64,000 nt of DNA from Variovorax paradoxus (GTDB lineage: Bacteria; Pseudomonadota; Gammaproteobacteria; Burkholderiales; Burkholderiaceae_C): NCBI GenBank assembly GCA_016806145.1, contig CP063167.1:1794501-1858500 (forward strand), in the 5' to 3' direction. A program made the translations under genes and the position numbers. Below are positions 32,101 to 62,678 of the stretch, piece after piece; the first letter of the stretch is position 1, and the number at the start of each line of letters is the position of its first letter. The notes below the pieces were generated by a model that saw nothing but the letters and a program-made list of their open reading frames with translations, did no database searches and was not told where the DNA came from.

Positions 32101-32146
32101 AGTGTCTTCATGCATCCGGGTTGCGTCAGTCCCCATCACAGGGGAC
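32101..32146 (-). promoter_or_regulatory. Regulon site 1: inverted repeat plus promoter of the binding-protein gene
   Basis: On the minus strand GTCCCC and GGGGAC (32129-32146, spacer 6) end in the -35 element CTGACG (32124-32129). After exactly 17 bases comes the -10 element GACACT (32101-32106). The predicted transcript start is near 32094, leaving a leader of about 48 bases with a ribosome-binding site. The operator overlaps -35 by one base. Confidence 0.75.
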
Positions 32147-32160
32147 GGACCGACCCGATG

Positions 32161-33372
32161 CTATTCGGCCACCAACTCCAGCGGCAGTACGTCGAGCGTG
32201 CGCAGCGTGTTCACCGGCCGCCAGCGCGATGCGCCCGCGGGCTCGATGCGCTGCACGCGGCGCACCAGCGCGCCGAGGATGCTCTCGGCCTCGAGCCGCG
32301 AGATCATCTGGCCGATGCACACGTGCGCGCCCACGCCGAAGGCGCGGTGCACGCCCGCGGTCTGGCGCGTGACGTCGAAGCGCGCCGGATCGGGCCACTG
32401 GCGCGGGTCGCGGTTGGCCGCACCCATGTGGTAGCCGACCTTGGTGTCGGCGCGCAGTCGCACGCCGCCGAGCTCGACCTCGCCCGTGGTGGTGCGGAAC
32501 ATCACCTGCGCCGGCGACTCCAGCCGCAGCGCCTCCTCGAACGCACCCTTGATGAGCGCCGGGTTGGCCTTCACGAGCGCGAACTGGTCGGGGTGCTCGG
32601 CCAGCAGCTTGAGCGTCGATCCGATGCCGGCGATGGTGGTGTCGACGCCGGCGCGGAAGAAGGAGCGCACATGCAGCGGCGCCGTCCCCTTGTCGAAATG
32701 GCCCGCGTCCTCGGCCTCGTAGATCTTCTCGGCGAAGCCGCCGGGCAGCGTGTGCTCGCGTTGCAGCACCTGCTGGTACCAGTCCATGATCGGCGCGGCG
32801 CGCTCGAGCGCCTGCGCCACGCGCTCGTTGTTCGGCCCGAGCTGGTTGAAGTTGAGCTCGCCCGTGAGCTTGATGCGCTCGGGCGGCACCGCGATGCCGA
32901 GCACGGCCGGGAACACCTCGAGCACGTAGGCCTCGGTGATGTCGGCCACGCCGTCGACGCGGCCGCGCGCCACCGCGGCCTCGGCGATCTCCTCGGCGCG
33001 CTGCGCGAACTTCTCCTTCCAGCTCTTGACCACCAGCGGCGACAGGATGCGCTGCAGCGCGGCGCGAACGCGCGTGTGCTCGGGCGGGTCGATCTCCGAG
33101 ATCGGGCTGCGCGTGCGCCAGGCGCCGGGCTTGCGGATGTCGCTCATGCCCACGCCGCCCTCGACGGTGAAGCGCTCGAAGTCGCTCGCGACGATGCCGG
33201 CCTCGGCATGGCGCGTGACGGCGTAGTAGCCGTGCGGCGCGACGTAGACCGCGGGGGCCATCTCGCGCATGCGGTCGAACAGCGGGTAGGGATCGGCGAT
33301 GTTCGCGTCGGAGAACGGATCCTCGTCGAGGACCGGTGCGTCGGGGATCGACAGGGTGGCGGTGGCGTTCAT
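32161..33372 (-). CDS. Cytochrome P450
   Basis: 403 residues, a soluble class-I-type bacterial P450. The I-helix oxygen-binding motif is AGVDTT, the K-helix ExxR is in EEALRLESP, and the heme-binding loop is FGVGAHVCIG with the ligand Cys352. It follows the NTF2-like gene 13 bases downstream in one operon and should take electrons from a [2Fe-2S] ferredoxin. The only ferredoxin in the window (62269-62592) has the same type of promoter site. Substrate unknown; a hydroxylated hydrophobic or aromatic compound is likely. Confidence 0.96.
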   Translation of the reverse strand: MNATATLSIPDAPVLDEDPFSDANIADPYPLFDRMREMAPAVYVAPHGYYAVTRHAEAGIVASDFERFTVEGGVGMSDIRKPGAWRTRSPISEIDPPEHTRVRAALQRILSPLVVKSWKEKFAQRAEEIAEAAVARGRVDGVADITEAYVLEVFPAVLGIAVPPERIKLTGELNFNQLGPNNERVAQALERAAPIMDWYQQVLQREHTLPGGFAEKIYEAEDAGHFDKGTAPLHVRSFFRAGVDTTIAGIGSTLKLLAEHPDQFALVKANPALIKGAFEEALRLESPAQVMFRTTTGEVELGGVRLRADTKVGYHMGAANRDPRQWPDPARFDVTRQTAGVHRAFGVGAHVCIGQMISRLEAESILGALVRRVQRIEPAGASRWRPVNTLRTLDVLPLELVAE

Positions 33373-33385
33373 GGTTCGGTCCTTT

Positions 33386-33841
33386 TCAATCCGCGCTCGG
33401 CAGCACGCGCACGGTCATGTCGGCGATGCGCCAGCCCTCGCCGGTGCGCCGGAAGCGCAGGTCGTAGGTGCCGAACATCGCGATCTTGCCGGGGCCGTCG
33501 CGCCAGTCGGTGATGAGCGCGCGCGCATGGCCGTGGGCCTCGTCGGCGCCTGCGCCGGGCACGGCGTAGAAGTCGGTCATCTGGTGGTGCATGCGCTGCC
33601 TGAACTTCTTCTTCATCACCTCTTCCATCAGCGCGAGCAGATGGTCGCGGCCATGGATGGTTTCGGGCGGAAGGCCGCTGCCGCCCTGCGAGGCGGGTGG
33701 CGAGTTGGCGCGGGTCCAGCTGGCGTCCTCGGTGAACAGCTGGGCGAAGTCGGGGTCGCCGGCATCGGCCAGGTGGCCGTAGCGGGCGAACAGGGAACGG
33801 ATCTCGAGCTCGTCCTCGACGGGCAGTTGCGGAAAGCGCAT
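33386..33841 (-). CDS. NTF2-like (SnoaL-type) protein
   Basis: 151 residues. The cone-shaped NTF2 fold is suggested by EDELEIRSLFARYGHLADAGDPDFAQLFTEDASWT, which is the helical opening of SnoaL-like and ring-hydroxylating small-subunit-like proteins, and by FGTYDLRFRRTGEGWRIADMTV at the end. GGAGA is five bases from the start. It is the first gene of the P450 operon. Members are isomerases, hydratases or binding proteins; here it probably handles the P450 substrate or product. Confidence 0.88.
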   Translation of the reverse strand: MRFPQLPVEDELEIRSLFARYGHLADAGDPDFAQLFTEDASWTRANSPPASQGGSGLPPETIHGRDHLLALMEEVMKKKFRQRMHHQMTDFYAVPGAGADEAHGHARALITDWRDGPGKIAMFGTYDLRFRRTGEGWRIADMTVRVLPSAD

Positions 33842-33873
33842 GGGGTCTCCAGGGTCGGCACAGTGCTTCGCCC

Positions 33874-33918
33874 AGTGTCCGCAGGCCCGCCGCGCGCGTC
33901 TGTCCCCATGCGGGGGAC
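33874..33918 (-). promoter_or_regulatory. Regulon site 2: inverted repeat plus promoter of the NTF2-P450 operon
   Basis: On the minus strand GTCCCC and GGGGAC (33902-33918, spacer 5) run into -35 CAGACG (33897-33902); 17 bases later is -10 GACACT (33874-33879), identical to site 1. The leader would be about 26 bases with a CTGGAGA ribosome-binding site. On the plus side the same operator is 60 bases from the LivH-like start, but a good plus-strand promoter is not evident. Confidence 0.75.
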
Positions 33919-33978
33919 GGCGGCCCCGGGCGCACCCGTACCGTCGCAAGGGGACATACAACCAAGGGCCGCATTCCG

Positions 33979-34884
33979 ATGATCGCCGCCATGCTGATGC
34001 AACAACTACTCAATGGCGTGGTCGTGGGCAGCGTCTATGCGCTGTTCGCGCTCGGGTTTACCCTTCTGTTCGGGGTCAACCACATCATGAACATGGCCCA
34101 TGGCTCGGTGTTCATGTGGGGCGCGTTCGCGGGCCTGTACGCGGTCACGGTGCTCGACGCGCCGATCTATGTCGCCCTGCTGATCGGCATGCTCGCGGGC
34201 GGGCTGGTCTCGGTGGCGCTGGACCTGTTCGCGTTCCGCCCGCTGCGCCGCCGCGGCGCGCCGGAGTTCTCGGCCATCGTGTCATCGATCGGCGCCGACC
34301 TGGTGCTGCTCGCGCTGGCGCAGAAGCTGTCGAACACGGCCGTGATGCGCTTTCCCTTCGATGCCTTCCCGGTGGTCATCTACACCATCGGCGGGGTGCG
34401 CGTGCAGCTGCTGCAGCTGGTGATCGTGGCGCTGGTGGTGGCGATGGTGTTCGGCCTGGTCTGGTACCTCTACCGCACCGGTTTCGGCCAGCGCATCCGC
34501 TGCGTGGCCTATTCGGAGCAGACCTCGCGATTGCTGGGCATCAACCCCGGGCCGGTGAACATGCAGGTGTTCCTGATCTCGGGCGCGCTCGCGGGCATGG
34601 CCGGCGTGCTGATCGGGCTGGTCTTCAACTCGGTGCACTTCGCGATGGGCGAGCCGCTGCTGCTGCGCGCCTTCGTGATCATCATCCTCGGCGGGCTCGG
34701 CAGCATTCCGGGCGCGCTGATCGCGGGGCTCGCGATCGGCATCGTGCAGACGCTCGCGGTGGCCTATGTCTCCTCGGGCGTGGCGGAGGCGATCGTCTTC
34801 ACCGCGCTGTTCGTCGTCATCCTGGTCCGGCCCACCGGCCTGTTCGGTCAATCGTCCGCCGCCATGCGGGTGCAACGCGCATGA
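33979..34884 (+). CDS. Branched-chain-type ABC transporter permease (LivH type)
   Basis: 301 residues, polytopic, with the LivH signatures LLNGVVVGSVYALFALGFTLLFGVNHIMNMAHG near the start and GGLGSIPGALIAGLAIGIVQ near the end. It overlaps the next permease by ATGA. In these catabolic settings the LivHMGF family often imports aromatic or other carboxylates rather than amino acids; the neighbouring P450 and dehydrogenase genes support that as inference. Confidence 0.96.
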   Translation: MIAAMLMQQLLNGVVVGSVYALFALGFTLLFGVNHIMNMAHGSVFMWGAFAGLYAVTVLDAPIYVALLIGMLAGGLVSVALDLFAFRPLRRRGAPEFSAIVSSIGADLVLLALAQKLSNTAVMRFPFDAFPVVIYTIGGVRVQLLQLVIVALVVAMVFGLVWYLYRTGFGQRIRCVAYSEQTSRLLGINPGPVNMQVFLISGALAGMAGVLIGLVFNSVHFAMGEPLLLRAFVIIILGGLGSIPGALIAGLAIGIVQTLAVAYVSSGVAEAIVFTALFVVILVRPTGLFGQSSAAMRVQRA

Positions 34885-35819
34885 TGAACTTCTTCTACAC
34901 CTACCAGTCGTTGTTCGACCACATCCTGGTCTACGCGATGCTCGCGATGAGCCAGTACGTGGTGCTGCGCGCGGGCGTGTTCTCGCTCGGCAGCGCGGGT
35001 TTCGCCGCCATCGGCGCCTATGGCTGCGCGCTGCTGGTGGTCAAGGCCGGCTGGCCGCCGCTGGCGGCGATCGCCGCGGGCACCGCGCTCGGCGGCGCGG
35101 CGAGCGCCGTGCTAGCCTTTCCGCTGTCGCGGCTGCGCGGCGTGTTCCAGGCGGTCGCCACCCTGGCCATGGTGCAGATCGTGCTGTCGGCCACGCAGAA
35201 CTGGACCAGCGTGACCAACGGCGCGATCGGCATCAGCGGCATTCCGAAGGTGGCCGGCACCGGCGAGCTGCTGCTGATCGTGGTCGCGGTGGTGGTGCTG
35301 CTGGCCGCGATGGGCCGCCACAGCATCGGCCGCGCGATGGACGTGATCCGCGAGGACGAGACCGTGGCCGTGTCGCTCGGCATCTCGGTGCCCTACCACC
35401 AGCGCATCGCCTTCATCCTCTCGGGCCTGCTCGCGGGCCTGGGCGGCGCGCTGCAGGCCTCGAGCAGCTATGCCATCACGCCCGGCGAGTTCGGCTTCGG
35501 CATGCTGGTGGCGGTGCTCGCGATGGTGGTGCTCGGCGGGCGAACTTCTGTGTGGGGCGCGCTCGTGGGCGCGGCGATTCTCACCACCTTGCCCGAGCTG
35601 TTCCGCGTGTTCGCCGACTACCGCAACGTGGTGCAGGGCATCCTGCTGATGCTGGTGATCGTCTACCTGCCGCGCGGCGTGGCCGACACCGCGATCGCGC
35701 TGCTGCACGACCGCCGTTTGCGGCGCCAGGCGGGCCATGCGCCGCGCGCGCCCGCGGCACCGGCGGTGCCCAAGGCACCCATCGTCAAGACATCGATCGA
35801 AGGAGGCCTGCGCCCATGA
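34881..35819 (+). CDS. Branched-chain-type ABC transporter permease (LivM type)
   Basis: 312 residues, the second membrane subunit. Typical motifs are MSQYVVLRAGVFSLGSAGFAAIGAYGCALL and LSGLLAGLGGALQASSSYAITPGEFGF, with GGRTSVWGALVGAAIL in the last helices. A basic, Ala/Pro-rich cytoplasmic tail of about 40 residues follows. It overlaps both neighbours by four bases, so the four transporter genes are translated as a block. Confidence 0.96.
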   Translation: MMNFFYTYQSLFDHILVYAMLAMSQYVVLRAGVFSLGSAGFAAIGAYGCALLVVKAGWPPLAAIAAGTALGGAASAVLAFPLSRLRGVFQAVATLAMVQIVLSATQNWTSVTNGAIGISGIPKVAGTGELLLIVVAVVVLLAAMGRHSIGRAMDVIREDETVAVSLGISVPYHQRIAFILSGLLAGLGGALQASSSYAITPGEFGFGMLVAVLAMVVLGGRTSVWGALVGAAILTTLPELFRVFADYRNVVQGILLMLVIVYLPRGVADTAIALLHDRRLRRQAGHAPRAPAAPAVPKAPIVKTSIEGGLRP

Positions 35820-36574
35820 CCGCGACCCTGGTTCTCGAAGGCGTGGCCCGCCATTTCGGCGGCGTGCCGGCCGTCGACGGCCTGAGCCTGCAGGTGCCGG
35901 CCGGGCAGATCACCGGCCTGATCGGCCCTAACGGCGCGGGCAAGACCACGGTGGTCAACCTGATCACCGGGCTGCTGCACCTGACGGCGGGCCGGGTGCT
36001 TCTCGAGGGCCGCGACGTCTCGCGCGACGAGGCGCCCGCGCTCGCGCGTGCCGGCGTGGCGCGCACCTTCCAGAACATCCGCCTGGTGCCCGACGCGAGC
36101 GTGCGCGAGAACGTGGTGGCGGGCTTCCATCGGCACGAGAAGTCCGGCCTGTGGGCCAACCTGCTGGGCCTGCCGTCGGCGCGCGCCGAGGCGCGCGAGC
36201 TCGATGCGCGCGCGATGGAACTGCTCGAGCGCTTCGGCATGACCGCGCTGGCCGAGCACCGCGCGGGCAGCCTCTCGTACGGCCACCAGCGGCGCATCGA
36301 GATGATGCGCGCGCTGGCCACCAGCCCGAAGCTGCTGCTGCTCGACGAGCCCGTGGCCGGCATGAACGACGCCGAGGCCGAGAGCCTCGCCGGCATCTTC
36401 CGCAACGTGGCCGCCAGTGGCGTGGCGGTGCTGCTGATCGAGCACAACATGCGCTTCGTCATGTCGCTGTGCTCGCACCTGTACGTGCTGGCCTCGGGCC
36501 GGCTGATCGCCGACGGCCTGCCCGAGGCGGTGGGTCGCGACCCGAAGGTCGTCGAAGCCTATCTGGGAGCCTGA
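35816..36574 (+). CDS. Branched-chain-type ABC transporter ATP-binding protein (LivG type)
   Basis: 252 residues. Walker A GPNGAGKTT, Q-loop TFQNIRLV, signature LSYGHQRRIEMMRALA, Walker B LLLLDEPVAGMND and switch His in LIEHNMRFVM. LSYGH in place of LSGGQ is normal for LivG proteins. It begins inside the stop of the LivM-type gene. Confidence 0.96.
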   Translation: MTATLVLEGVARHFGGVPAVDGLSLQVPAGQITGLIGPNGAGKTTVVNLITGLLHLTAGRVLLEGRDVSRDEAPALARAGVARTFQNIRLVPDASVRENVVAGFHRHEKSGLWANLLGLPSARAEARELDARAMELLERFGMTALAEHRAGSLSYGHQRRIEMMRALATSPKLLLLDEPVAGMNDAEAESLAGIFRNVAASGVAVLLIEHNMRFVMSLCSHLYVLASGRLIADGLPEAVGRDPKVVEAYLGA

Positions 36575-36577
36575 ACC

Positions 36578-37294
36578 ATGCTCGAGATCCGAAACCTCGA
36601 CGTCCACTACCGCGGCATCCAGGCGTTGCGCGGCGTGAGCCTCCATGTGAAGCAGGGCGAGATCTTCGCGCTGATCGGCCCCAACGGCGCCGGCAAGTCG
36701 AGCCTGGTGAACGCGCTCTCGGGCCTCGTGCCCACGGGCGGCGAAATCCGTTTCGAAGGCCAGCCGCTGGGGCGCATGCCCGCGCACCTGCGTTCGCGCG
36801 CCGGCATCATCCAAGTGCCCGAGGGCCGGCGCGTGATCGCGCCCTTGTCGGTGGCGGAGAACCTCGAGCTCGGCCGTCAGGCGGCGGGCGTGCGCGGCAG
36901 CGATGCGAAGGACCTGGAGCGCGTGCATGCGCTGTTCCCAGTGCTCAAGGACCGGCGCCATCAGCTCTCGGGTTCGCTGTCGGGCGGCCAGCAGCAGATG
37001 CTTGCGATCGGTCGCGCGCTGATGGCGCGCCCGCGCGTGCTGATGCTCGACGAGCCCAGCCTCGGGCTCGCGCCCGTGATCATCAAGGAGGTGTTCCGCG
37101 CGCTGGTGCAGCTCAATCGCGAGGGCATGACCATCCTGCTGGTGGAGCAGAACGCGCGCCTCGCGCTGCAGACCGCGCACCGCGCCGCGGTGCTCGAGCA
37201 GGGGCGCATCGTGCACGAGGGCAAGGCGAGCGAACTGGCGAACGATCCGGTTATTGCGGACCACTACTTCGGGCGGGCCGGCCTGATCGCGTGA
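36578..37294 (+). CDS. Branched-chain-type ABC transporter ATP-binding protein (LivF type)
   Basis: 238 residues. Walker A GPNGAGKSS, signature LSGGQQQMLAIGRALM, Walker B VLMLDEPSLGLAP and switch region LLVEQNARLAL, the LivF form. The N-terminus MLEIRNLDVHYRGIQALRGVSL is also typical. It closes the transporter operon three bases after the LivG-type gene and is followed by the convergent aldehyde dehydrogenase gene. Confidence 0.96.
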   Translation: MLEIRNLDVHYRGIQALRGVSLHVKQGEIFALIGPNGAGKSSLVNALSGLVPTGGEIRFEGQPLGRMPAHLRSRAGIIQVPEGRRVIAPLSVAENLELGRQAAGVRGSDAKDLERVHALFPVLKDRRHQLSGSLSGGQQQMLAIGRALMARPRVLMLDEPSLGLAPVIIKEVFRALVQLNREGMTILLVEQNARLALQTAHRAAVLEQGRIVHEGKASELANDPVIADHYFGRAGLIA

Positions 37295-37309: not shown

Positions 37310-38728
37310 TCAGGCGGTGGTGATCGTCTTCGGCTCGAGGAACGCCTCGAGCCCGAACATCCCGAACTCCCGCCCGATCCCTGACTGCTTGACCCCGCCA
37401 AAGGGCGCGAGCAGGTCGGGCGCGATGCGGTTGACGAGCACCGTGCCGGCCTCGAGGCGCGCGGCGACGCGGCCGGCGTGTTGCGCATCCGACGAGAACA
37501 CGTAGGCCTGCAGTCCGTAGGGCGTGTCGTTCGCGATCGCGACGGCCTCATCCTTGCCTTCGTAGCCGAGCACCGACAGCACCGGCCCGAAGATCTCTTC
37601 GCGCGCGATGTCCATGTCGTTGCGCACGTCGGCAAACACCGTGGGCCTGACATACCAGCCGCGCGACAGTCCCTCGGGCCGGCCCTCGCCGCCGGCCACG
37701 AGCGTCGCGCCCTGTTCCTTGCCGCGCCGGATGAAGCGCTGGATGCGCTCGAACTGGGCCGCGTTCAACAGCGGCCCGATGGCCGTGGCCGGATCGCGCG
37801 GATCGCCCACTCGCAGCGCGGTTGCGATGGCGGCGATGCGCTCGATCGCTTCGGGCATGCGCGCACGCGGGATCAGGAGCCGTGTGCCCGCGACGCAGGC
37901 CTGGCCGTTGTTCATGAACGCCGCGTTGAGTGCCAGCGGCAGCGCGCGCGCGAAGTCGGCGTCGTCGAGCACGATCGAGGCCGACTTGCCGGTGAGCGCG
38001 AGGCTCACGCGCTTCATGGTGTCGAGCGCGGCGCGTGCGATCAGCTTGCCGGTGGGCGTCGAGCCCGTGAACGACAGCTTCGCGATGCCGGGATGGGTGG
38101 CGATCTCGTCGCCCACGTCGGCGCCGCGGCCGAGCAGCACATTGAACGCGCCCGCGGGCAGGCCCGCGTCGTGCAATGCCTCGGTCACCACCTGGGCCTG
38201 GATCGGTCCCAGCTCGCTGGGCTTGATGACCGACGCGCAGCCGGCCGCGATCGCCGAGGCGAGCTTGCTGCAGACCGAGCCGGCGACGCTGTTCCAGGGC
38301 GCGATCAGCCCGGCCACGCCGACCGGCGCCAGCGTCACCGTCGAATCGCCGACGCGGCGTGTGAACTCGAAGGCCTCGAGCGTGCGTGCCGCATTGGCGA
38401 AGCATTGCGAGGCGTAGTCGCTGACCCACTGCGCGCGCGCGAGCGGGCCGCCGTACTCCTCGATGGTCGCGTCGCGGATCGCGTCGGTGCGCGCGAGCAC
38501 GGCGGTGCGCAGCCGCTCGAGCATCTCGATGCGCTCGGCCTTGCCGGTGGCGGCCAGCGCGGGCTGGGCGCGCTGCGCGGCCGCGATCGCGCGCTTCGCG
38601 TCGTCGCGGTTGGCGAGCGTCGCGGTGCCGATGCGCTGTTCGGTCGCGGGGTTGGCGATCTCCACGACCTCGGTGCCCTGCACGGCCACGAAGGCGCCGT
38701 CGATGTAGGCCTTGTCGATGTTCCACAT
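37310..38728 (-). CDS. Aldehyde dehydrogenase-family protein lacking the catalytic Glu
   Basis: 472 residues, usual ALDH length. The Rossmann region (APWNSVAG with Asn146, VIKPSE with Lys169, [11 protein letters not shown]) and the nucleophile motif NNGQACVAG with Cys278 are intact. The LELGGKS element, whose Glu is the general base, reads LALTGKS, so Ala244 replaces Glu. [10 protein letters not shown] is present. AGGAG is eight bases from the ATG. It is divergent from a LysR gene. It may oxidise an aldehyde to a CoA ester or acid by a Glu-independent route, or be impaired; this is undecided. Confidence 0.93.
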
Positions 38729-52287: not shown

Positions 52288-53271
52288 TCATTCGGCCTTG
52301 ATGCCGCGCTCGCGCACCACGCGGCCCCACTTGACGGTCTCCGACTGGATGTACTGGGTGAACTGCTCGGGCGTGCCACCCACCGGGTCGATGCCCGCCT
52401 CGCCGAGCTTGCGCCGGATCTCGGCCGGCGCAATGGCCTTGAGATAGGCCGCCTGCAGCGCCTGCACCACGGCATCGGGCGTGCCGGTGCGCACGCTGAA
52501 GCCCTGCCATCCTTCGACCTCGAATCCCTTCACGCCCTGCTCGGCCACGGTCGGCACCTCGGGATAGGCCGCGATGCGTTTCGCGCCGGCCGCGGCGATC
52601 GGGCGCAGCCGGCCCGACTCGATGTGCGGCCGCGCGGTGGCGCGGTCGAGGAACATCAGGCCCACCTGGCCGCCCAGCAGGTCCTGCACCGCGGGGCCGC
52701 CGCCCTTGTAGGTGATGGCGACCAGCTTCATGCCGGTCTCGCGCGCGAGCAGCTCGGTGGCGAGGTGGTGCGTGGTGCCCACGCTCGGCGAGCCGTAGTT
52801 CAGGCCCTCGGGCGTGCGCGCGGCCAGCGCGATCAGCTCCTGCAGATTGCGCACCGGCAGGGTGTTCGGATTGACCACCAGCAGGAAGTCGAACTTCGCC
52901 GTCATGGTCACGGTGCGCAAGTCCTTGAGCGGGTCGTACGACAGCTTGTCGAACATGGCGGGGTTGACCGCGTAGGTGGTCATGTCGCCGAGCAGGAAGG
53001 TGTGGCCGTCGGGTGCGAGCTGCTTGGCCACGGCGGTCGCGCCGATGATGCCGGAGGCGCCGGGGCGGTTGTCCACGATCACCGGCTGGCCCAGCACCTC
53101 GCCCATGCCGGGCGCGACGAGGCGCGCGAAGAAGTCGGTGCCGCCGCCGGCCGGGTAGGGCACGATCAGGCGGATCGGCTGGCTGGGCCAGTTGCCTTGG
53201 GCCGCCGCGCCGAAGGCCGCGGGGGCCAGGGCGCCGGTGGCCAGGAGCGAAAGCAGGGTGCGTCGTTGCAT
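52288..53271 (-). CDS. Bug-family tripartite tricarboxylate receptor
   Basis: 327 residues. The signal MQRRTLLSLLATGALAPAAFGAAAQG precedes WPSQPIRLIVPYPAGGGTDFFARLV, VIVDNRPGASGIIGATAVA and YKGGGPAVQDLLGGQVGLMFLD, the Bug signatures. It is the third gene of the hemerythrin/monooxygenase operon, 28 bases after the monooxygenase stop. It probably captures the monooxygenase substrate or a related carboxylate in the periplasm. Confidence 0.94.
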   Translation of the reverse strand: MQRRTLLSLLATGALAPAAFGAAAQGNWPSQPIRLIVPYPAGGGTDFFARLVAPGMGEVLGQPVIVDNRPGASGIIGATAVAKQLAPDGHTFLLGDMTTYAVNPAMFDKLSYDPLKDLRTVTMTAKFDFLLVVNPNTLPVRNLQELIALAARTPEGLNYGSPSVGTTHHLATELLARETGMKLVAITYKGGGPAVQDLLGGQVGLMFLDRATARPHIESGRLRPIAAAGAKRIAAYPEVPTVAEQGVKGFEVEGWQGFSVRTGTPDAVVQALQAAYLKAIAPAEIRRKLGEAGIDPVGGTPEQFTQYIQSETVKWGRVVRERGIKAE

Positions 53272-53299
53272 GGTGGCTGTCTCCTCGTTCGTTGGAATG

Positions 53300-55081
53300 T
53301 CAGGCCGCGAGATCGCGCTGCAGGATCTTCGCAAAGGCCGCCGCGAGCTGCCCGCGCGCGCTGTCGCCGCGGCCCATCGCGCGCCAGGCCACGTGCTGGT
53401 CGGGCCGCACCAGGATCGCGCCATCCGACGACACACCGCGCAGGCAGCGCCAGGTTCCTTCGACGTCGCGCACCGTGGCCGTGTCGTGGATCTCGACGAT
53501 GTCCACCGGCAGGCCGGCGCCATGCGCCAGCGTGGCCGCGGCATCGGCCCAGGCCGAGCCCTGGCGGCCGGTCAGCAGCGTGAAGCGGCCCGGGCGCACC
53601 AGGTCGAGCGTGGAGATCTGCTTGCCGTCGCGCTCGAGCCAGGCATGCGGCAGCCGGTGGCCGGGCCGGGTGGTGGGCACGTAGGTCTGGCCCAGCGGAT
53701 CGCGCTCGGGCGTGGGCGTGCCGTCGGGCATGACGGCGCCAAGCTCGTAGTGGTAGCCCAGTTCGATGTCGTGCGCCTGCCATTCCATGCGCTGCACTTC
53801 CATGATCTGTGCCAGCCGCGCGCGCCGCGTGCGGCCCTCGGCGTCGTCGGCGAAGTAGCGGCGGAAGTTCGCCTGGCTCAGCTCGGCGTTGCCGCGCACC
53901 AGGCCGATGCCGGCATCGGTGAGCTGGTGGTTCTGGAAGGTCATCAGCGCCCACTGGATGTTGAACGCGGCCACCGGGCGGCGCTCGGCCTCGTAGCTGT
54001 CGAGCAGGCTGTCGTGCGCCTCGCCCTTCAGCACGGCCGCGAGCTTCCAGGCCAGGTTGTGCGCGTCCTGGATCGCCGAGTTCAGGCCCAGGCCGGTGGT
54101 CGGCGGATGGCGGTGCGCGGCATCGCCCGCGAGCAGCGCGCGGCCCCAGCGGTAGCGGTCGACCAGCACGCCCTCGACCGTCCAGTGGCCGATGCCGATG
54201 ATGTCGGGATGCAGGTCGGGGATCTTGAGCAGTTCGCGCATGCGCGGCAGCAGCGACGACTCCTCGAAGCGCGAAGGGTCGTCGGGCCGGAAGCTGAAGT
54301 GGAACATCCACTCCTCGGAATACCGGCCGAAGCGCGTGGGCCCGAGCTGGCCCAGCACGCCGCTGGCCCAGGAGCCGCCCTCGGGATTGACGAACCAGGT
54401 GGTCATCGAATGGTCGTCGTCCCAGTACTTCGAGAGGTCGGCGCGGAAGTAGACCGTGACCATGTGCGCGAGGTCGGTCGCGCCGCTCATCACCGCGCCC
54501 AGCGTCGGGCCCACGGTCTTGCCGCCGTCGGCGCCGATCAGGTACTTCGCGCGCACGCGGTATTCCTCGCCGCTGTCGCGGTCGAGCACGCGCGCGGTCA
54601 CGCCGTTTTCGTCCTGCTCGAAGGACTGCAGCTGGTGGTGGTAGCGCACCTGCGCGTTCGCCTCGGCCGAGGCCAGCTCGCGCAGCAGCGGCTCCATGCG
54701 CACCTGTGGGTAGAGCGTCGATTCGCAGGGGCTGTCCTTCGCATAGTGCTGCGCGAGCGAGCCGCCGCCGAAGGACTCGATGCGGTAGAAGGTGCGGCGG
54801 TCGAGTTCGCCGTCGCCGGCCAGCGTGGTGCACCAGCGGATGTGCGAGATGTGGGCCAGCGGCATCGAGCGTTCGTAGACCCGCTCGGCCACTTCGAACT
54901 GGCGCAGCAGCTCCATGGTGCGCTGGCTGATGTAGCGCGCCTTGGGCAGCCGGCCCGGTGCCGGATGGCGTTCGATCAGCAGGCTCGCGATGCCCTGGCG
55001 CGAGAGGAACAGCGAGGCCGCGAGGCCGCAGCCTCCGCCGCCGACGATGAGAACGGGAACGTCGATGTCTTGCATGGTCAT
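53300..55081 (-). CDS. FAD-dependent aromatic monooxygenase (group A, phenol hydroxylase-like)
   Basis: 593 residues. The FAD-binding GxGxxG is VLIVGGGGCGLAASLF, the middle motif is YLIGADGGKTVG, and the GD motif is RALLAGDAAHRHPPTTGLGLNSAIQDAHNLAWKL. A C-terminal thioredoxin-like extension (from about 480) is typical of TfdB/PheA-type hydroxylases. It starts in the stop of the hemerythrin gene (ATGA). It should hydroxylate an aromatic ring with NAD(P)H. It is under the regulon site at 55692-55736. Confidence 0.94.
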   Translation of the reverse strand: MTMQDIDVPVLIVGGGGCGLAASLFLSRQGIASLLIERHPAPGRLPKARYISQRTMELLRQFEVAERVYERSMPLAHISHIRWCTTLAGDGELDRRTFYRIESFGGGSLAQHYAKDSPCESTLYPQVRMEPLLRELASAEANAQVRYHHQLQSFEQDENGVTARVLDRDSGEEYRVRAKYLIGADGGKTVGPTLGAVMSGATDLAHMVTVYFRADLSKYWDDDHSMTTWFVNPEGGSWASGVLGQLGPTRFGRYSEEWMFHFSFRPDDPSRFEESSLLPRMRELLKIPDLHPDIIGIGHWTVEGVLVDRYRWGRALLAGDAAHRHPPTTGLGLNSAIQDAHNLAWKLAAVLKGEAHDSLLDSYEAERRPVAAFNIQWALMTFQNHQLTDAGIGLVRGNAELSQANFRRYFADDAEGRTRRARLAQIMEVQRMEWQAHDIELGYHYELGAVMPDGTPTPERDPLGQTYVPTTRPGHRLPHAWLERDGKQISTLDLVRPGRFTLLTGRQGSAWADAAATLAHGAGLPVDIVEIHDTATVRDVEGTWRCLRGVSSDGAILVRPDQHVAWRAMGRGDSARGQLAAAFAKILQRDLAA

Positions 55082-55668
55082 TTCTGGAGCGTGGGATCGG
55101 GGCAGGAGGTGCGGGCGGTGATGCGCGCGAACAGCGCGCGGTGGCCCTGCGTCATCGCGGCATCGGTGTCGCCGCGCTGGCGCGCCAGCGCCTCGGCGAG
55201 TTCGCGCCAGTCGGCGGGCGAGAGGTAGTCGGCGGCCACCGGCAGCACATAGCTTTCCTCGACCTCCATGTGGCCGAGGTAGACGGTCGAGTGCGTGTGC
55301 AGCAGCAGCTGGAAGGATTCGCGGTGCACCTCGCCCATCAGCTCCCAGGCGGTCAGCGCATGCTCGAGCTCGCGCACCGAGGATTCGCCGCGCTCGTGCT
55401 CGGCCTCGAGCCGGGCCAGCACCGGGCGCAGCGCCGGGCAACGCTCGCGGATCTTCGGGAACAGCAGCTCGCTCTCGCTCGCGTGGTGCATGCGCGCGGG
55501 CATCTCGTCGAGGTAGAACAGCATGGCGCGCAGCTCGTCGAAATCGGGCCGGCGGGCCGAGCGGCGCGCCTGCTCGACGCTGTCGCCCAGTGCCCGCAGC
55601 ACCGTCGCGAGGGCCTGGTGATCCTCGAGGATCAGCTGGACGGCGGAGGGTTGGAGCAGGGGCGGCAT
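55078..55668 (-). CDS. Hemerythrin-like (HHE) domain protein
   Basis: 196 residues of the HHE cation-binding type. Histidine/Glu-rich helices are seen: LILEDHQALATVLRALGDSV, MPARMHHASESELLFPKIRE, LEAEHERGESSVRELEHAL and VYLGHMEVEESYVLPVAADYL, which provide the diiron ligands. It is the first gene of the monooxygenase operon and is coupled to it. A role in oxygen or iron handling for the monooxygenase is inferred. Confidence 0.9.
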   Translation of the reverse strand: MPPLLQPSAVQLILEDHQALATVLRALGDSVEQARRSARRPDFDELRAMLFYLDEMPARMHHASESELLFPKIRERCPALRPVLARLEAEHERGESSVRELEHALTAWELMGEVHRESFQLLLHTHSTVYLGHMEVEESYVLPVAADYLSPADWRELAEALARQRGDTDAAMTQGHRALFARITARTSCPDPTLQK

Positions 55669-55691: not shown

Positions 55692-55736
55692 ATTGGGGCA
55701 CAGCCGGGCGCCGGGGTCAGTCCCGCTGCAGGGGAC
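55692..55736 (-). promoter_or_regulatory. Regulon site 3: inverted repeat plus promoter of the hemerythrin-monooxygenase operon
   Basis: On the minus strand GTCCCC and CGGGAC (55720-55736, spacer 5) lead into -35 CTGACC (55715-55720); 17 bases later is CCCAAT (55692-55697). One operator arm has a single mismatch (C for G). It lies 11 bases from the LuxR-type gene stop, so that gene and the operon are adjacent and read in the same direction. Confidence 0.7.
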
Positions 55737-55747: not shown

Positions 55748-56596
55748 CTAGTGCAGCGCGCGCGAGGCCATCGTCTGGAAGCGCTCCGCGCTCCAGCGGC
55801 CCCAGCGCGCGAGGTACCAGGTCAGCAGCTCGCGTTCGCTGCCGATCACCAGCCGCTGGTAGGCGCGCTTGCGGTAGGTCTTCACGGTCTCCTCGCTCAC
55901 CGCGAGGTCGAGCGCGATGCCGACCGACGACAGCCCGTAGAGGATGCGCGCGCAGACCTCGGCCTCGCGGCGCGGCAGCGGGCTGGTCGCCACGATGCAG
56001 TTCTCGATCTCCTCGAGCGTGGTCAGCGCCTGCGACACGTCGGGCCGGCTCTGGCAGACGTCGGCGTGCTTCGAGAGCATCGCCAGCAGCAGTTCGGCCG
56101 CCTGCGCGAGGCGCTCGATGCCGTCGTGCGCGAACGGCGTGTGCGGGTCGGCGCGCAGCACGCTGAGGCCGAAGGCGCCGTTGGTGCCGCGGCCGCACAG
56201 CAGGATGCGGTCGCGCACGTGCGGGTAGACGCGCGGGCGCAGGTCGTCGTATTCGTGGTCGCTGAAGTCGACGTGGATGATGGTGGCGGCCGCGCCGTCG
56301 ACGCGGCGCTGCGCTTCCGTCATGGCCGGGTCGTGCTTCCACAGGCCCTGCTTGACGTAGCTCTCGACGCGGTCGCGCGCGGTGCGCTCGGGCTGCACGC
56401 AGCAGGCCGCCACTTCGCGCAGCTCGTCCTGGCCGAGGCGGAAGGCCGCGAAGTGATCGGCGCCGCACAGCGCATGCAGGTAGTTCGCGAGCGCGGGCGC
56501 GAAGCGTTCGCTGCCCATGCCGTCGACCAGGCGCGCGAGCTGCGCTTCCGAGGAGGAGGCGGCCGCGGGCCGGTCCTGGATCATCACCGTCATCAT
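55748..56596 (-). CDS. LuxR-family transcriptional regulator (candidate master of the regulon)
   Basis: 282 residues. The N-terminal ligand-sensing region (about 20-190: FAPALANYLHALCGADHFAAFRLG, YVKQGLWKHDPAMTEAQRRVDG) resembles autoinducer-binding/GAF-type sensors. The C-terminal LuxR helix-turn-helix is LPRREAEVCARILYGLSSVGIALDLAVSEETVKTYRKRAYQRL. No acyl-homoserine-lactone synthase gene is in the window, so it is a solo or metabolite-sensing LuxR. AGGAG is seven bases upstream. It probably binds the GTCCCC/GGGGAC sites; this is inference from adjacency and geometry. Confidence 0.92.
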   Translation of the reverse strand: MMTVMIQDRPAAASSSEAQLARLVDGMGSERFAPALANYLHALCGADHFAAFRLGQDELREVAACCVQPERTARDRVESYVKQGLWKHDPAMTEAQRRVDGAAATIIHVDFSDHEYDDLRPRVYPHVRDRILLCGRGTNGAFGLSVLRADPHTPFAHDGIERLAQAAELLLAMLSKHADVCQSRPDVSQALTTLEEIENCIVATSPLPRREAEVCARILYGLSSVGIALDLAVSEETVKTYRKRAYQRLVIGSERELLTWYLARWGRWSAERFQTMASRALH

Positions 56597-56749: not shown

Positions 56750-57598
56750 TCAGCCCCAGCCCATGCGGCGCGAAACGTCCTCGGCGCGCGCCGACAGCAC
56801 GGTCGCCACGTGGCCGTCGAGGCGGGTGTCGATCAGGCCGGCCGAGCCCATCACGGTCATCACGCCGGCCACCGCGCCCGCGTGGTCGAAGATCGGTGCC
56901 GACACGCCGTGCAGCCCCGGATTGAGGTCGCCCTGGATGCGCGCGAGCTTGCGCTTGCGCACCGACTCGAACAGCGTCTCGACGTCGGCACGCGTCATCC
57001 TGCCGGCGGCCGGGTTGGGCGTCGCGCCCGGATGCGGCACGCCCGACAGCTCGCGGTCGATTAGCGGTGCCGTCACCGAGGCCGGCAGGTAGGCGCCGAA
57101 GATGCGGCCGGTGGAGGAGGTCAGCATCGGCATCACCGAGCCGGGGCGGCCGCTGATGATCAGCGCGTCGTTGGTCTCCTCGAAGCGCACGAAGGTCGGC
57201 CCGGCCGCGCCCCAGACCGCGAGGCCGACGGTGAAGCCGAGTTCGTCGCGCAGTTCGCCCAGCGTGGGCGAGGCCACCTGCACCACGTTGAGCCGGCGCA
57301 GCGCAGCGAGGCCCAGCCGCACCGCCAGCGGCCCGAGCCGGTAGCCGCCGCTGGCGGCATCGCGCTCGGCCAGCCCGCTGCGGCAGAAGCTCACGAGGTA
57401 GCGGTGCGCCTTCGGCGGCTGCATCTCGGCGCGCTCGGCCACGGTCTTGAGCATCAGCGGCGCGCCGGTGTCGATCAGCGCGGACAGCACGCGCACCGCG
57501 GTGTCGACCGCCTGCACGCCGCCCGCGTCCTCGTCGCCGGCACCGTGGCCCGTGCCGTTCGTCTCGTCGGCGCCATGGCCGGACTTCGCATCTTTCAT
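56750..57598 (-). CDS. IclR-family transcriptional regulator
   Basis: 282 residues. The winged helix at about 30-95 (VQAVDTAVRVLSALIDTGAPLMLKTVAERAEMQPPKAHRYLVSFCRSGLAERD) is followed by the IclR effector domain (SPTLGELRDELGFTVGLAVWGAAGPTFVRFEET to MTVMGSAGLID). An acidic Gly-rich tail starts the protein. It lies between the WrbA-like gene and the LuxR gene on the same strand. IclR proteins sense aromatic or carboxylate metabolites; its target is unknown. Confidence 0.94.
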   Translation of the reverse strand: MKDAKSGHGADETNGTGHGAGDEDAGGVQAVDTAVRVLSALIDTGAPLMLKTVAERAEMQPPKAHRYLVSFCRSGLAERDAASGGYRLGPLAVRLGLAALRRLNVVQVASPTLGELRDELGFTVGLAVWGAAGPTFVRFEETNDALIISGRPGSVMPMLTSSTGRIFGAYLPASVTAPLIDRELSGVPHPGATPNPAAGRMTRADVETLFESVRKRKLARIQGDLNPGLHGVSAPIFDHAGAVAGVMTVMGSAGLIDTRLDGHVATVLSARAEDVSRRMGWG

Positions 57599-57653
57599 GG
57601 GGGAGGGCGGGACCATCCGCACGAGACTAGCACGGGCATGGTCGCCGCCTGCC

Positions 57654-58350: not shown

Positions 58351-58395
58351 GCCCCCCTGCGGCGGGACAGACAGCCGCCGCGCCATGGCTATGGT
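58351..58395 (+). promoter_or_regulatory. Regulon site 5: inverted repeat plus promoter of the NIPSNAP-like gene
   Basis: A variant of the shared operator, with arms GCCCCC and CGGGAC (58351-58368), runs into -35 CAGACA (58368-58373) and, 16 bases later, TATGGT (58390-58395). The ATG is seven bases beyond, so the transcript would begin at or one base before the start codon. The left arm is degenerate, so this site is weaker than the others. Confidence 0.55.
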
Positions 58396-58402
58396 GGCGG
58401 CC

Positions 58403-59110
58403 ATGATCCACGAACTGCGTCTCTACGCGGTGGCACCGGGCCGCATGGCCGACGTGCACGACCGCTTCAACCACCATTTCCCGGCCTTGTTCGAGAAGCA
58501 CGGCGTCGACTGCGTCGCGCGCTGGCAGGCCGTGGCCGGCCCCGACGCGCCGCGCTTCGTCTACCTGATGGCCTACCGCGACTACGCGCACCGCGAGGCC
58601 GTGTGGGCCAGCTTCTATGCCGACGCCGAGTGGTGGCGCGTGCGCGCCGAGACCAATGCGGGCCACGAGATGGTGGAACGCCACGACCTGTTCTTCCTGA
58701 AGCCGAACGCCGCCTGGCCGGCGCTCGCGGCGGCCGACGCGGCCGAGTCGGTGGGCGGCCTGCACGAGCTGGTGCAGCAGCAGATCGCGCCCGGGCAGAA
58801 CGCCAATGCCAATGCGTTCCTGCACGACACCTGGCTGCCGCGCGTGCGCGAGGCTGGCGCGCGCGTGCTCGCCGTGTGGGACATGGCGGCCGGCGCCGGC
58901 ATGCAGAAGGTCGTGCTGCTCTACGCCTGGCCCGATGCCGCGGCCTGGCGTGCCGGCCGCCAGCGACTGGACCGCGATGCCGCGCTGCAGGCCGAGTTCG
59001 CGGCGCAGCGCGCGCGCCATGGCACGGCGCTGTTCCAGCGCGCCGAGGTCAACCTGCTCGAGCCCGCGCCGGGCGCGACCATTCGCGCCGGGCTGGGCCG
59101 CATCGCCTGA
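58403..59110 (+). CDS. NIPSNAP-family protein
   Basis: 235 residues made of two ferredoxin-like alpha/beta repeats, the first MIHELRLYAVAPGRMADVHDRFNHHFPALFEKHG, typical of NIPSNAP domains, the second from about residue 117 (VGGLHELVQQQIAPGQNANANAFLHDTWLPRVREAG). Bacterial NIPSNAP genes often lie in catabolic clusters without a known reaction. It overlaps the next gene by one base (TGATG). The ATG lies seven bases after a -10 element, so the mRNA may be leaderless. Confidence 0.88.
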   Translation: MIHELRLYAVAPGRMADVHDRFNHHFPALFEKHGVDCVARWQAVAGPDAPRFVYLMAYRDYAHREAVWASFYADAEWWRVRAETNAGHEMVERHDLFFLKPNAAWPALAAADAAESVGGLHELVQQQIAPGQNANANAFLHDTWLPRVREAGARVLAVWDMAAGAGMQKVVLLYAWPDAAAWRAGRQRLDRDAALQAEFAAQRARHGTALFQRAEVNLLEPAPGATIRAGLGRIA

Positions 59111-60255: not shown

Positions 60256-61449
60256 TCAGCCGGCCGGACGCGGATTCGCCGCCGCCCGCTGCCGCAGGCT
60301 CAGCGCGAAGCCCGCGCCGATCGCCAGCAGCGCCGCCGCGCAGGCCAGGAACACCGGTCGCGTGCCGATGCGGTCCACCGCCGCCGAGGCCACGGCCACG
60401 CCGAGCGCGATGCCGAGGAACATGGTGGACGCGAACAGGCTCACCGCGGTGCCGCGCAGCGCCGGCACCATCTGCGTGGCATGGGTCTGCAAGGTGCCGT
60501 GCAGCGCGTAGAACCCCAGGCCCGCCACCAGGCAGGCCGGCAGCGCCAGCGCCCAGTGCTGGCCGAGCGCGAGCGCCAGCCAGCCCAGGCCCAGCGCGAT
60601 GCCGCCGCCCAGCACCAGCCCGCCTTCGCCGAACATGGCCAGCAGCCGGCGCGCCGCGAAGGCATAGAAGAAACCGCCCACGCCGTAGAGCGCCACCACG
60701 CCCGCCGCGCTCGAGAGCCCGAGACCGTATTCGCGCACCAGGAAGGCCGGCAGGAAGGCCAGGCCCGAGAAGGCGAAGGCGCCCTCGGCCATTACCACCA
60801 GCAGCATCCAGCGCGCCCAGGGTTCGGCCAGCACGCGCAGGATGTCGCGCAGATGCCCATGGCCGTGGCTCGAAGGCGCGCGCACCGGCTCGGCGCGCAC
60901 CTCGCGGTTCAGGCTGATCGCAAGCCCGCCGACGCAGAACACCACGGCCAGCAGCGCGAACACCGCGCGCCAGCCCAGCCATTCGGTGAGCACGCCCGAC
61001 ACCCACTGCCCGGCGATCATGCCGCCCAGCGACAGCATCAGGAAGCGCGCCAGCACCGGCTGCCGCTCGGCGTAGGGCACGGTGTCGCCGACCCAGGCCA
61101 GCACCAGCGCGATGATGCCGGCCGCCGCGGCGCCGGCGAGGAAGCGCGCCACCACCAGCATCTCGAGGCTCATCGCTGCCAGCGCGAGCAGGTTGCCGGC
61201 CACGCAGCCCAGCGCCGCGAAACCGATGGTGCGGCGCTTGCCGAAGCGGTCGCCGAGCGGGCCGAACAGCAGCTGCAGCAGCCCATAGGCCACCGCATAG
61301 ACCGACACCGTGAGCGCCGCGCGGCCGGTGGTGACACCGAAGTTCTGCGCCAGCGCGGGCAGCATCGGATCGCAGACGCGCATCATCGCGCTGCTGCAGC
61401 AATGCACCGTGGCCAGCGCCGCCAGGCCACCGGGCCGCACGCGGGTCAT
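60256..61449 (-). CDS. MFS transporter
   Basis: 397 residues with 12 membrane helices. The motif-A loop is GPLGDRFGKRRTIGFAALG, and MMRVCDPMLPALAQNFGVTTGRAALTVSVYAVAYGLLQL is like the opening of drug- and arabinose-efflux-type carriers. It overlaps the SDR gene by ATGA, so it belongs to the ferredoxin-SDR-MFS operon. It may export a product or import the substrate of that operon. Confidence 0.93.
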   Translation of the reverse strand: MTRVRPGGLAALATVHCCSSAMMRVCDPMLPALAQNFGVTTGRAALTVSVYAVAYGLLQLLFGPLGDRFGKRRTIGFAALGCVAGNLLALAAMSLEMLVVARFLAGAAAAGIIALVLAWVGDTVPYAERQPVLARFLMLSLGGMIAGQWVSGVLTEWLGWRAVFALLAVVFCVGGLAISLNREVRAEPVRAPSSHGHGHLRDILRVLAEPWARWMLLVVMAEGAFAFSGLAFLPAFLVREYGLGLSSAAGVVALYGVGGFFYAFAARRLLAMFGEGGLVLGGGIALGLGWLALALGQHWALALPACLVAGLGFYALHGTLQTHATQMVPALRGTAVSLFASTMFLGIALGVAVASAAVDRIGTRPVFLACAAALLAIGAGFALSLRQRAAANPRPAG

Positions 61450-62264
61450 CGGGCCTGCGCGTCCTGCTTCTCGAAACCGGGGCGCGGAATCAGCGACAGC
61501 CAGGCGGTGCTGAGGCCGCCGTCGACCAGCAGGTCCTGCCCGTTCACGTAGCCCGAGCGCGGGCTGGCCAGGAAGGCCACCACCTCGGCGATGTCCTTCG
61601 GCCCGCTGATGCGTCCGGCCGGCACGATGGCCTCGCGCTTCGCGAGCACCTCGGGCTGGGTGTAGATGCCTTCGGTGAGCGGCGTGCGCACCATCGCCGG
61701 GCTCACCACGTTGCTGCGGATGCGGTGCTCGCCGAGCTCCACCGCCAGCAGCTGCGACAGCATCTTCACGCCCGCCTTGCTGATGCTGTAGGGGCCGCTG
61801 TAGGGCTGCGGCACGCGGCCCGAGATCGAGGCCACGTGCACCATGCTGCCGCCGCCCGCGGCGATCATCTGGCGGCCGAAGGCCTGCGCGCACAGCAGGA
61901 AGCCGTCGAGGTTCACCGCCATCAGCCGGTGCCAGCGCTCGATGTCGATGTCCATCAGCGCCGCGGCGTAGATCGTGGCCGCGTTGTTCACCAGCACGTC
62001 GCAGCGACCGAGCTCGCGCTCGACCGCGGCCGCGGCGCGTTCCACGTCGGCCTTGTCGGTGATGTCGCAGCCCAGCGCGATCGCGCGCGCGCCGCTTTCC
62101 GCGATGTCGGCCGCGGCGCGGGCCGCGCCCGCTTCGTCGCGGTCGAGCAGCGCCACCCTGGCGCCCACCGACGCGAGCTCGCGCGCGATCTCGATGCCGA
62201 TGCCGCCGGCCGCGCCGGTGACCACGCAGACCTTGTCTTCCAGTTGCAGCCAGTTCGCGGTCAT
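61446..62264 (-). CDS. Short-chain dehydrogenase/reductase
   Basis: 272 residues of the classical SDR type. The cofactor motif is VTGAAGGIGIEIAREL, the NNAG-like motif is VLVNNAATIYA, and the active-site Ser-Tyr-Lys is seen as VHVASISGRVPQPYSGPYSISKAG. The acidic ALLDRDEAGAA after strand 2 suggests NAD(H). A C-terminal tail of about 20 residues follows. It is four bases downstream of the ferredoxin gene and probably oxidises an alcohol made by the P450 or monooxygenase. Confidence 0.94.
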   Translation of the reverse strand: MTANWLQLEDKVCVVTGAAGGIGIEIARELASVGARVALLDRDEAGAARAAADIAESGARAIALGCDITDKADVERAAAAVERELGRCDVLVNNAATIYAAALMDIDIERWHRLMAVNLDGFLLCAQAFGRQMIAAGGGSMVHVASISGRVPQPYSGPYSISKAGVKMLSQLLAVELGEHRIRSNVVSPAMVRTPLTEGIYTQPEVLAKREAIVPAGRISGPKDIAEVVAFLASPRSGYVNGQDLLVDGGLSTAWLSLIPRPGFEKQDAQAR

Positions 62265-62268
62265 GGCG

Positions 62269-62592
62269 TCAGACCTGCGGGTTGGCGATGCGCAGCACCA
62301 GGCCGTCGAGCGCCGCGCTCATCACGAGCTGGCACGAGAGCCGGCTCGTGGCCTGGCGCGGCGCGGCCGTGTAGTCGAGCATCTGGTCCTCGGTCGAGGC
62401 CATGGCGGGCAGTGCGTCCGCGGGGCCGTCTTCCACGAAGACATGGCAGGTGGCGCAACTGAGCGAGCCGCCGCAATCGCCGACGATCTCGTCGATGCCG
62501 TGGTCGCAGGCGGCGCGCATGAGGTTGGTGCCGACGGGAACGTCGACGTCGCGGCGGGCGCCGTCGGCGCAGATGAAGGTGGCCTTTGTCAT
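62269..62592 (-). CDS. [2Fe-2S] ferredoxin, adrenodoxin/putidaredoxin type
   Basis: 107 residues. Cys40, Cys46, Cys49 and Cys87 follow the C-x5-C-x2-C-xn-C pattern of adrenodoxin-like [2Fe-2S] ferredoxins, the usual electron donors of class-I bacterial P450s. The start ATG is six bases after a -10 element, so the mRNA may be leaderless; no ribosome-binding site is seen. First gene of the ferredoxin-SDR-MFS operon. It is the likely partner of the P450 at 32161-33372, with which it shares a promoter site; no ferredoxin reductase gene is in the window. Confidence 0.95.
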   Translation of the reverse strand: MTKATFICADGARRDVDVPVGTNLMRAACDHGIDEIVGDCGGSLSCATCHVFVEDGPADALPAMASTEDQMLDYTAAPRQATSRLSCQLVMSAALDGLVLRIANPQV

Positions 62593-62598
62593 GGCGCC

Positions 62599-62643
62599 AC
62601 TGTCGGGCGCGGGCGGCCCGGTGTCAGTCCCCTCGGAGGGGAC
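62599..62643 (-). promoter_or_regulatory. Regulon site 4: inverted repeat plus promoter of the ferredoxin operon
   Basis: On the minus strand GTCCCC and GGGGAC (62627-62643, spacer 5) run into -35 CTGACA (62622-62627). After 17 bases comes -10 GACAGT (62599-62604), with ATG six bases on. On the plus side CACACT (62667-62672), also six bases before the quinone oxidoreductase ATG, could be the -10 of a divergent promoter sharing the operator, though its -35 is poor. Confidence 0.75.
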
Positions 62644-62678
62644 GGGCGCGGCGCGGCACTCCTGCGCACACTCGCGGC

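Follow-up and report, generated by a model that had tools for sequence, protein, structure and literature searches.

A GTCCCC/GGGGAC palindrome as the proposed operator of an unpaired LuxR-type regulator and a P450-centred catabolic regulon in Variovorax paradoxus

An inverted repeat with the arms GTCCCC and GGGGAC recurs in front of catabolic operons in a 64,000-nucleotide stretch of the Variovorax paradoxus genome (the window; C2:1794501-1858500 on contig CP063167.1, in a genome of 9.44 Mb and three contigs), which raises the question of what the repeat does, which protein reads it and how many genes it joins. It is very probably the operator of an unpaired LuxR-family protein encoded in the window at 55748-56596, which would activate a catabolic regulon centred on cytochromes P450. 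A sequence-only reading of the window had listed five such operators near 32.1-62.6 kb, and all are present as described, including the one changed base of site 3, apart from a mix-up of sites 4 and 5. The degenerate left arm assigned to site 5 belongs to site 4, before the NIPSNAP gene, where both arms are changed (GCCCCC-N6-CGGGAC); the arms of site 5 are perfect.

The repeat exceeds chance, for the window has three perfect palindromes where shuffling gives 0.04 (100 shuffles, spacer 4-8). At all five sites its end overlaps a -35 of the form C(T/A)GAC, and a -10-like hexamer follows after 17 bp at four of them and after 16 bp at site 4, with GACACT common to sites 1 and 2, again as first read; the kinds of gene placed downstream of the five promoters agree with Pfam. 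Lux box-type class II operators are palindromes that overlap the -35 and are centred near -43. The arrangement here, read from sequence only, is class II-like, as the palindrome lies near -43, overlaps the -35 and has its -10 at 16-18 bp, but it differs in its GTCCCC/GGGGAC arms and its two spacer lengths. The assignment of the -10 is supported by its ending 6-8 nt before target start codons: among ferredoxin, ferredoxin/SDR and NIPSNAP promoters of the orthologous set, an ATG stands at that distance in 15 of 15 and opens the target protein in 14, with a 20-codon frame instead in the G096 promoter. This closeness, seen at window 62592-62604 and 58390-58403, at C2:1780236 and in orthologues, suggests that the messenger RNAs concerned may be leaderless.

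The genome scan proposed by the sequence-only reading returned seven matches to TCCCCN5-6GGGGACWGAC, all in one 163-kb stretch, and none in the reversed control. The bare palindrome GTCCCCN5-6GGGGAC occurs in nine places in the genome, seven of them within C2:1742868-1905953, and its reversed pattern in none. With a weight matrix built from 31 sites of four relatives and applied to 215 kb of the Variovorax paradoxus genome, 11 sites exceed the highest score of three shuffles (12.5), and two more, 1776754 and 1828438, lie at noise level and were accepted mainly because of their counterparts in relatives. The second of these (window 33938-33959) is at noise on score alone, has better-scoring counterparts in loci L023, L027 and L029, and is probably a sixth operator of the window that was missing from the first list. 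The reverse reading of operator 1 scores 14.9, above noise, and was left out of the site count. A single regulon of one oxidative pathway had been envisaged over 30 kb; the shared pathway is likely, and the extent was set too small, for 13 sites are spread over 163 kb and seven of them fall outside the window.

The LuxR protein adjoins one of its proposed sites, operator 3 lying 11 bp 3' of the luxR stop and just 3' in five orthologues as well (L036-L040). Its C-terminal GerE helix-turn-helix (HTH) domain is recognized by PF00196 with 38.1 bits against a cut-off of 23.5, and Pfam gave no autoinducer-binding domain and, besides GerE, only a sub-threshold Sigma70_r4_2 (E 0.001). In a structure model (pLDDT 84) the best matches are quorum-sensing LuxR proteins, led by the ligand-binding domains of VqsR and LasR, and the N-terminal domain has the LuxR autoinducer-binding fold. 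The invariant residues of this family are given, in the portion of PMC4338825 used, as W57, Y61, D70, P71, W85, G113, E178, L182 and G188 in TraR numbering. Spaced by eye, Y80, D89, P90, E211 and G221 match Y61, D70, P71, E178 and G188, R76, A104 and C215 stand in place of W57, W85 and L182, and G113 was not placed. A paired LuxR of the same genome (L147:2163-2966) has W, Y, D, P, W and E, L, G at the same spacings, and beside it lies the sole LuxI-family (Autoind_synth) gene of the genome (C2:778883-779407, L147), 1.07 Mb away. Judged by location, the window's LuxR is thus a solo without a cognate luxI, though it may respond to the signal made there. Because key residues appear to be replaced and the only luxI is distant and beside another LuxR, its ligand is likely to be something other than an acyl-homoserine lactone. 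It resembles the LuxR solos of quorum-sensing fold, as partly described in PMC4338825, in joining an autoinducer-binding-like fold to a GerE HTH without a paired luxI, but differs from them in giving no Pfam autoinducer match and in the replacement, by spacing, of W57, W85 and L182.

That this protein reads the sites, as first proposed, is supported by the comparison of genomes. In 101 Variovorax genomes, this one included, the strict motif occurs in 12 (41 matches; reversed control 0) and LuxR matches at E 1e-20 in 14, up to 24 candidates having been scored per genome. Eleven of the latter have at least 44% identity over most of their length; G015 and G033 (at most 32%) and G066 (a fragment) were excluded. 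Both are present in 10 genomes, LuxR only in one, the motif only in two and neither in 88 (Fisher p 3.7e-11, or 3.2e-9 counting all 14 matches, p-values that ignore shared ancestry). The LuxR-only genome, G064, is 69% complete, and in G027 and G061, which have the motif only, a LuxR of a second type, named C1-type, ends 23 and 11 bp before it. In addition, all eight genomes with an FAD (flavin adenine dinucleotide) monooxygenase of at least 58% identity also carry luxR at 44% or more, and four LuxR/NarL-type genes that do not belong to the family of this LuxR have no site. Among 399 family genomes (six LuxR candidates scored per genome) the motif occurs in 10 and LuxR matches in six, with four shared (p 3e-6); in G142 the LuxR of the family adjoins its site. 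LuxR relatives of 34% identity in Cupriavidus metallidurans CH34 and Burkholderia plantarii have, by eye, a variant operator GTC(A/C)CC-N6-GGTGGCAGAC behind luxR, with TAGAGT/TACAGT as the -10 at the same spacing.

The C1-type proteins (29 loci in 25 of the 101 genomes) repeat the association. In every one of the 23 loci with 44% identity or more, a palindrome with 0-2 arm changes follows the luxR stop at a distance of 6-71 bp, its arms perfect in 11 and with one and two changes in six each (p at most 0.01, 200 shuffles per stretch). Among the weaker loci, a palindrome lies downstream in L126 (one change) and in L122 (three changes) and upstream, before a divergent gene, in L124; none was found at L123, L125 or L127. 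The palindrome directly behind this second LuxR group (L099-L121) includes the outlier C1:6032429 of the window's own genome, which follows a paralogous LuxR gene; there and in G027 and G061 the next gene, by eye from its first residues, is Rieske oxygenase-like. A third paralogue, C2:515749, has, by eye, a half-degenerate operator before a divergent gene that looks Bug-like. Cross-talk of the second group with the main regulon is possible.

Conservation points in the same direction. Across eight promoter groups in five Variovorax genomes (40 cells), orthologous promoters have a site in 38. Within-group pairwise identity is 1.00 for the left arm, 0.97 for the right arm, 0.93 for WGAC and 0.75 for the spacer, compared with 0.47 for the upstream 30 bp, 0.58 for the 18 bp between and 0.57 after the -10; the -10 hexamer, which played no part in site selection, reaches 0.87. 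Promoter-specific quirks are also kept in relatives, namely GCCCCC...[CT]GGGAC at the NIPSNAP promoters and GTCCCT at those of the SDR/KstD group. G048 also has a further NIPSNAP homologue with an operator of the NIPSNAP type, and a strict site (G048:C1:1194948 and 1196709, L071); they share the 1.3-Mb contig of the main cluster but lie far away from it.

The operons behind these sites are common to four relatives (G095, G030, G096 and G048). In G095 they are collinear and in the same orientation within one island of about 39 kb; G030 and G096 match this order except for the KstD-like gene, and G048 is similar with some gaps. The KstD-like gene stands behind an SDR-type operator in G030, G096 and G048, and the second ferredoxin is absent from G095, G096 and G048, which leaves the SDR in first position there. 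In the window's genome there are instead six conserved blocks totalling about 44 kb, split by about 125 kb of DNA absent from the G095 island, and all 13 sites lie inside the blocks, the edges of which were set by hand, wide enough to include the sites that lie upstream in blocks E and F. Since the relatives share a compact order, an insertion here appears likelier than repeated deletion elsewhere; a scan of 20 insert genes gave no transposase or integrase domain at E 1e-8. Two of the intervening stretches are window 1-30840 and 37310-52284.

Several observations weigh against this interpretation. The 1826625-type LivK/binding-protein promoter lacks its own site in G095 and G048, and arm conservation is partly circular, the arms having been used to find the sites. 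Likewise, the matrix training set held orthologues of most own sites; 1742920 and 1873072 have none there. When the luxR and iclR promoters were examined, neither had an operator, and the lack at luxR is unfavourable; C2:1206180, one of two palindromes outside the cluster, is without explanation, and in the C1-type loci WGAC is missing in eight of 23, has one change in one and is full in 14. No site was found near the LuxR of G064 (44%), G228 (35%), Sphingobium (45%), Bradyrhizobium (45%) or B. arboris (36%), nor within 250 bp downstream of main-type L041, L043, L044, L045 and L093, and the palindromes that recur at the loci of Sphingobium, Bradyrhizobium and G064 gave no shared operator on inspection. 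The recognition helix alone fails to explain the lack of a site: G064 has RKLAY, not R.RA(Y/F), and is siteless, but G228 keeps RKRAY and is siteless too. In the 399 family genomes there were five reversed-control matches, so that single motif matches reach chance level, and five of the 10 motif genomes, the same number as the reversed control, had no convincing LuxR in the stretch read (G491 with two weak LuxR matches, G367 read over 2 kb on one side). The LuxR match of G118 and that of G397 are confined to the C-terminal domain and lie 7-9 kb from the site.

Other explanations of the palindrome must be set beside this one. Chance palindromes in G+C-rich DNA were rejected on the window shuffles and on the genome and genus reversed controls, both at 0. 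The sites might be transcription terminators or RNA hairpins, being G+C-rich inverted repeats at gene borders, with operator 3 just behind luxR; however, no T run follows any of nine sites inspected, the -35 and -10 at fixed spacing aim at the next gene, and at the divergent pair 1742864/1742920 each direction has a site of its own, which leaves this idea extremely unlikely. A different reader is conceivable in the IclR-family protein encoded beside luxR (56750-57616). IclR proteins bind palindromes, and iclR orthologues occur in the clusters of G095, G030, G096, G048, G093 and G082 and at six named loci. Against this, the 23 C1-type luxR loci (about 3.8 kb each) have the palindrome and no homologue of this IclR was found in them; among 33 other loci searched a homologue appeared in two, main-type G093 and G082, and no orthologue was found in L031 or G064. 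The operator, moreover, adjoins luxR, and an overlap with the -35 suits a LuxR-type activator, so IclR is quite improbable as the reader.

LuxR could also bind and repress, or act jointly with IclR, the substrate then derepressing the regulon. A site overlapping the -35 could block polymerase, and IclR is kept beside luxR, but it is the upstream edge of the -35 that the operator reaches, as in LuxR activators. The LuxR-type TeiR/TesR of Comamonas testosteroni, too, is an activator, according to part of PMC6895838, and repression or joint action is on the whole rather unlikely. Under activation by LuxR, the preferred reading, a LuxR dimer would bind a small molecule, which is probably either the substrate of the pathway or one of its intermediates, and would then sit on a GTCCCC-N5/6-GGGGAC site centred near -43 and overlapping the -35 (CWGAC), recruiting RNA polymerase to promoters with a -10 17 bp downstream. 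Uptake systems, three P450s, ferredoxins, ferredoxin reductase, dehydrogenases and coenzyme A (CoA)-ester enzymes would be co-activated, and operons that form one catabolic island in relatives would have been parted here by inserted DNA and still be linked by the shared operator.

The P450s, ferredoxins and ferredoxin reductase each stand behind separate operator copies, and it is because the operons include them that a shared oxidative pathway is likely. A P450 family is delimited at 40% amino-acid identity. Two regulon P450s score 323 and 303 bits against CYP199A4 chain 4dnz, which are bit scores and not identities, and in this are like CYP199 systems; the best match of both is 2fr7, titled only putative P450, and the chains nearest to the third P450 are 5xjn and 5gwe. 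An FAD enzyme matches 3-oxosteroid 1-dehydrogenase with 319 bits, cyclohexanecarboxylate-type dehydrogenases being below cut-off. The NCBIfam models for KstD/ChcC-like, OYE/BaiCD-like and SDR proteins all stay under their cut-offs, which only the ligase and the thiolase pass among nine proteins scanned, and for this reason no substrate is named; a ring-bearing acid is a reasonable guess. The Variovorax isoflavone (ifc) cluster was set aside as the same pathway: the word LuxR is absent from the main text of PMC11069340, and an FAD monooxygenase and a glyoxalase are named there as key enzymes. On Sphingobium pMI1, a LuxR of 45% identity has P450s, SDRs, an NTF2 protein, a hydrolase, a thiolase and a VOC protein for neighbours but lacks the motif, so that this LuxR associates with such genes beyond the operator's range.

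The features are collected in Table 1. Gene calls come from a custom codon-usage script and their start positions are approximate; most Liv genes, and the three SDRs in the 1780236 operon, received their names by eye. The Liv operon at 33979..37294 has an orthologous block in the four relatives, and ATG 33991 or 33997 may be its true start instead of the called ATG 33979. The ferredoxin heading the 60256..62592 operon is of the 2Fe-2S type.

Table 1. Proposed regulators, operators and target operons; positions are those of the window unless prefixed C2, and bracketed site numbers are C2 positions
Feature	Position	Strand	Remark
LuxR-family regulator, 282 aa, proposed activator; C-terminal GerE HTH	55748..56596	-	Pfam and structure model
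IclR-family regulator	56750-57616	-	orthologues beside luxR in relatives
Operator 1, GTCCCC-N6-GGGGACTGAC, perfect arms (1826625)	32125..32146	-	matrix score 33.9, clear
-10-like hexamer GACACT of operator 1	32101..32106	-	17 bp from -35
Liv-type periplasmic binding protein, behind operator 1	30916..32046	-	Pfam Peripla_BP_6
Operator 2, GTCCCC-N5-GGGGACAGAC, perfect arms (1828398, SnoaL-P450)	33898..33918	-	matrix score 34.3, clear
-10-like hexamer GACACT of operator 2	33874..33879	-	17 bp from -35
SnoaL/NTF2-like protein, first gene behind operator 2	33386..33841	-	Pfam SnoaL_4
Cytochrome P450, CYP199-like	32161..33372	-	Pfam p450; CYP199A4 chain 4dnz, 323 bits
Weak additional operator, GTACCG-N6-GGGGACATAC, before Liv-type operon (1828438)	33938..33959	+	matrix score 12.1, noise level
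Liv-type ABC transporter operon, four genes, behind weak operator	33979..37294	+	named by eye and gene order
Operator 3, GTCCCC-N5-CGGGACTGAC, between luxR and hemerythrin gene (1850216)	55716..55736	-	matrix score 26.9, clear
-10-like hexamer CCCAAT of operator 3	55692..55697	-	17 bp spacing
Hemerythrin - FAD monooxygenase - Bug (TctC) operon, behind operator 3	52288..55668	-	Pfam
Operator 4, GCCCCC-N6-CGGGACAGAC, degenerate, kept in relatives (1852851)	58351..58372	+	matrix score 17.5, clear
-10-like hexamer TATGGT of operator 4	58390..58395	+	16 bp; 7 nt upstream of ATG
NIPSNAP-family protein, behind operator 4	58403..59110	+	Pfam NIPSNAP (translation from 58391)
Operator 5, GTCCCC-N5-GGGGACTGAC, perfect arms (1857123)	62623..62643	-	matrix score 34.0, clear
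-10-like hexamer GACAGT of operator 5	62599..62604	-	17 bp; 6 nt upstream of ATG
Ferredoxin - SDR - MFS transporter operon, behind operator 5	60256..62592	-	Pfam Fer2, adh_short_C2, MFS_1
Site before P450-CoA transferase	C2:1742864		clear matrix score
Site before Liv-type binding protein	C2:1742920		clear matrix score
Site before SDR-SDR-OYE	C2:1776722		clear matrix score
Weak site before Liv-type operon	C2:1776754		score 12.6, noise level
Site before ferredoxin-VOC-DUF3237-SDR-SDR-P450-SDR	C2:1780236		clear matrix score
Site before hydrolase-(one gene not scanned)-thiolase-AMP ligase	C2:1873072		clear matrix score
Site before ferredoxin reductase, short open reading frame between	C2:1905932		clear matrix score

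Elsewhere in the window, a 1430-aa RHS-repeat protein is encoded together with a VgrG-like protein (Phage_GPD, Gp5 C-terminal domain) at 12117-20442 on the minus strand, in what looks like a type VI secretion locus, and a protein with an aminoglycoside adenylyltransferase C-terminal domain at 40744-41499, also on the minus strand.

Comamonas testosteroni belongs to the same bacterial family as Variovorax. A LuxR-type activator of a catabolic regulon is a known kind, and the nearest described is its TeiR/TesR, a LuxR-type positive regulator of several separate operons that form a ring-degradation pathway, as far as the portions of PMC6895838, PMC12239570 and PMC8399759 used describe it. The gene content here is P450-centred, unlike that of TeiR/TesR, and the likeness is one of described role. 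To judge from the searches, three things are new, namely the operator, the module of luxR, operator and operon, and the split island that the operator still links: none of the open-licence PMC titles listed was on the operator or regulon, and GTCCCC occurs in none of the matching articles listed.

A DNA recognition sequence is thus proposed for a LuxR group that is found in a minority of Variovorax and some other Comamonadaceae and has its operator as a variant in Cupriavidus and Burkholderia. With about 13 candidate promoters listed for one genome, the sensor ligand and the pathway substrate can both be tested directly with a reporter on any of them. A broader view is offered tentatively, as possible rather than probable: in the Burkholderiales an unpaired LuxR branch may have turned the quorum-sensing fold into a sensor of plant-, terpenoid- or steroid-like nutrients, the luxR, operator and operon forming a portable module whose operator would have spread to about a dozen operons, keeping a split island one regulon. 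A shared operator may, in this way, hold a pathway together after its gene island has been split.

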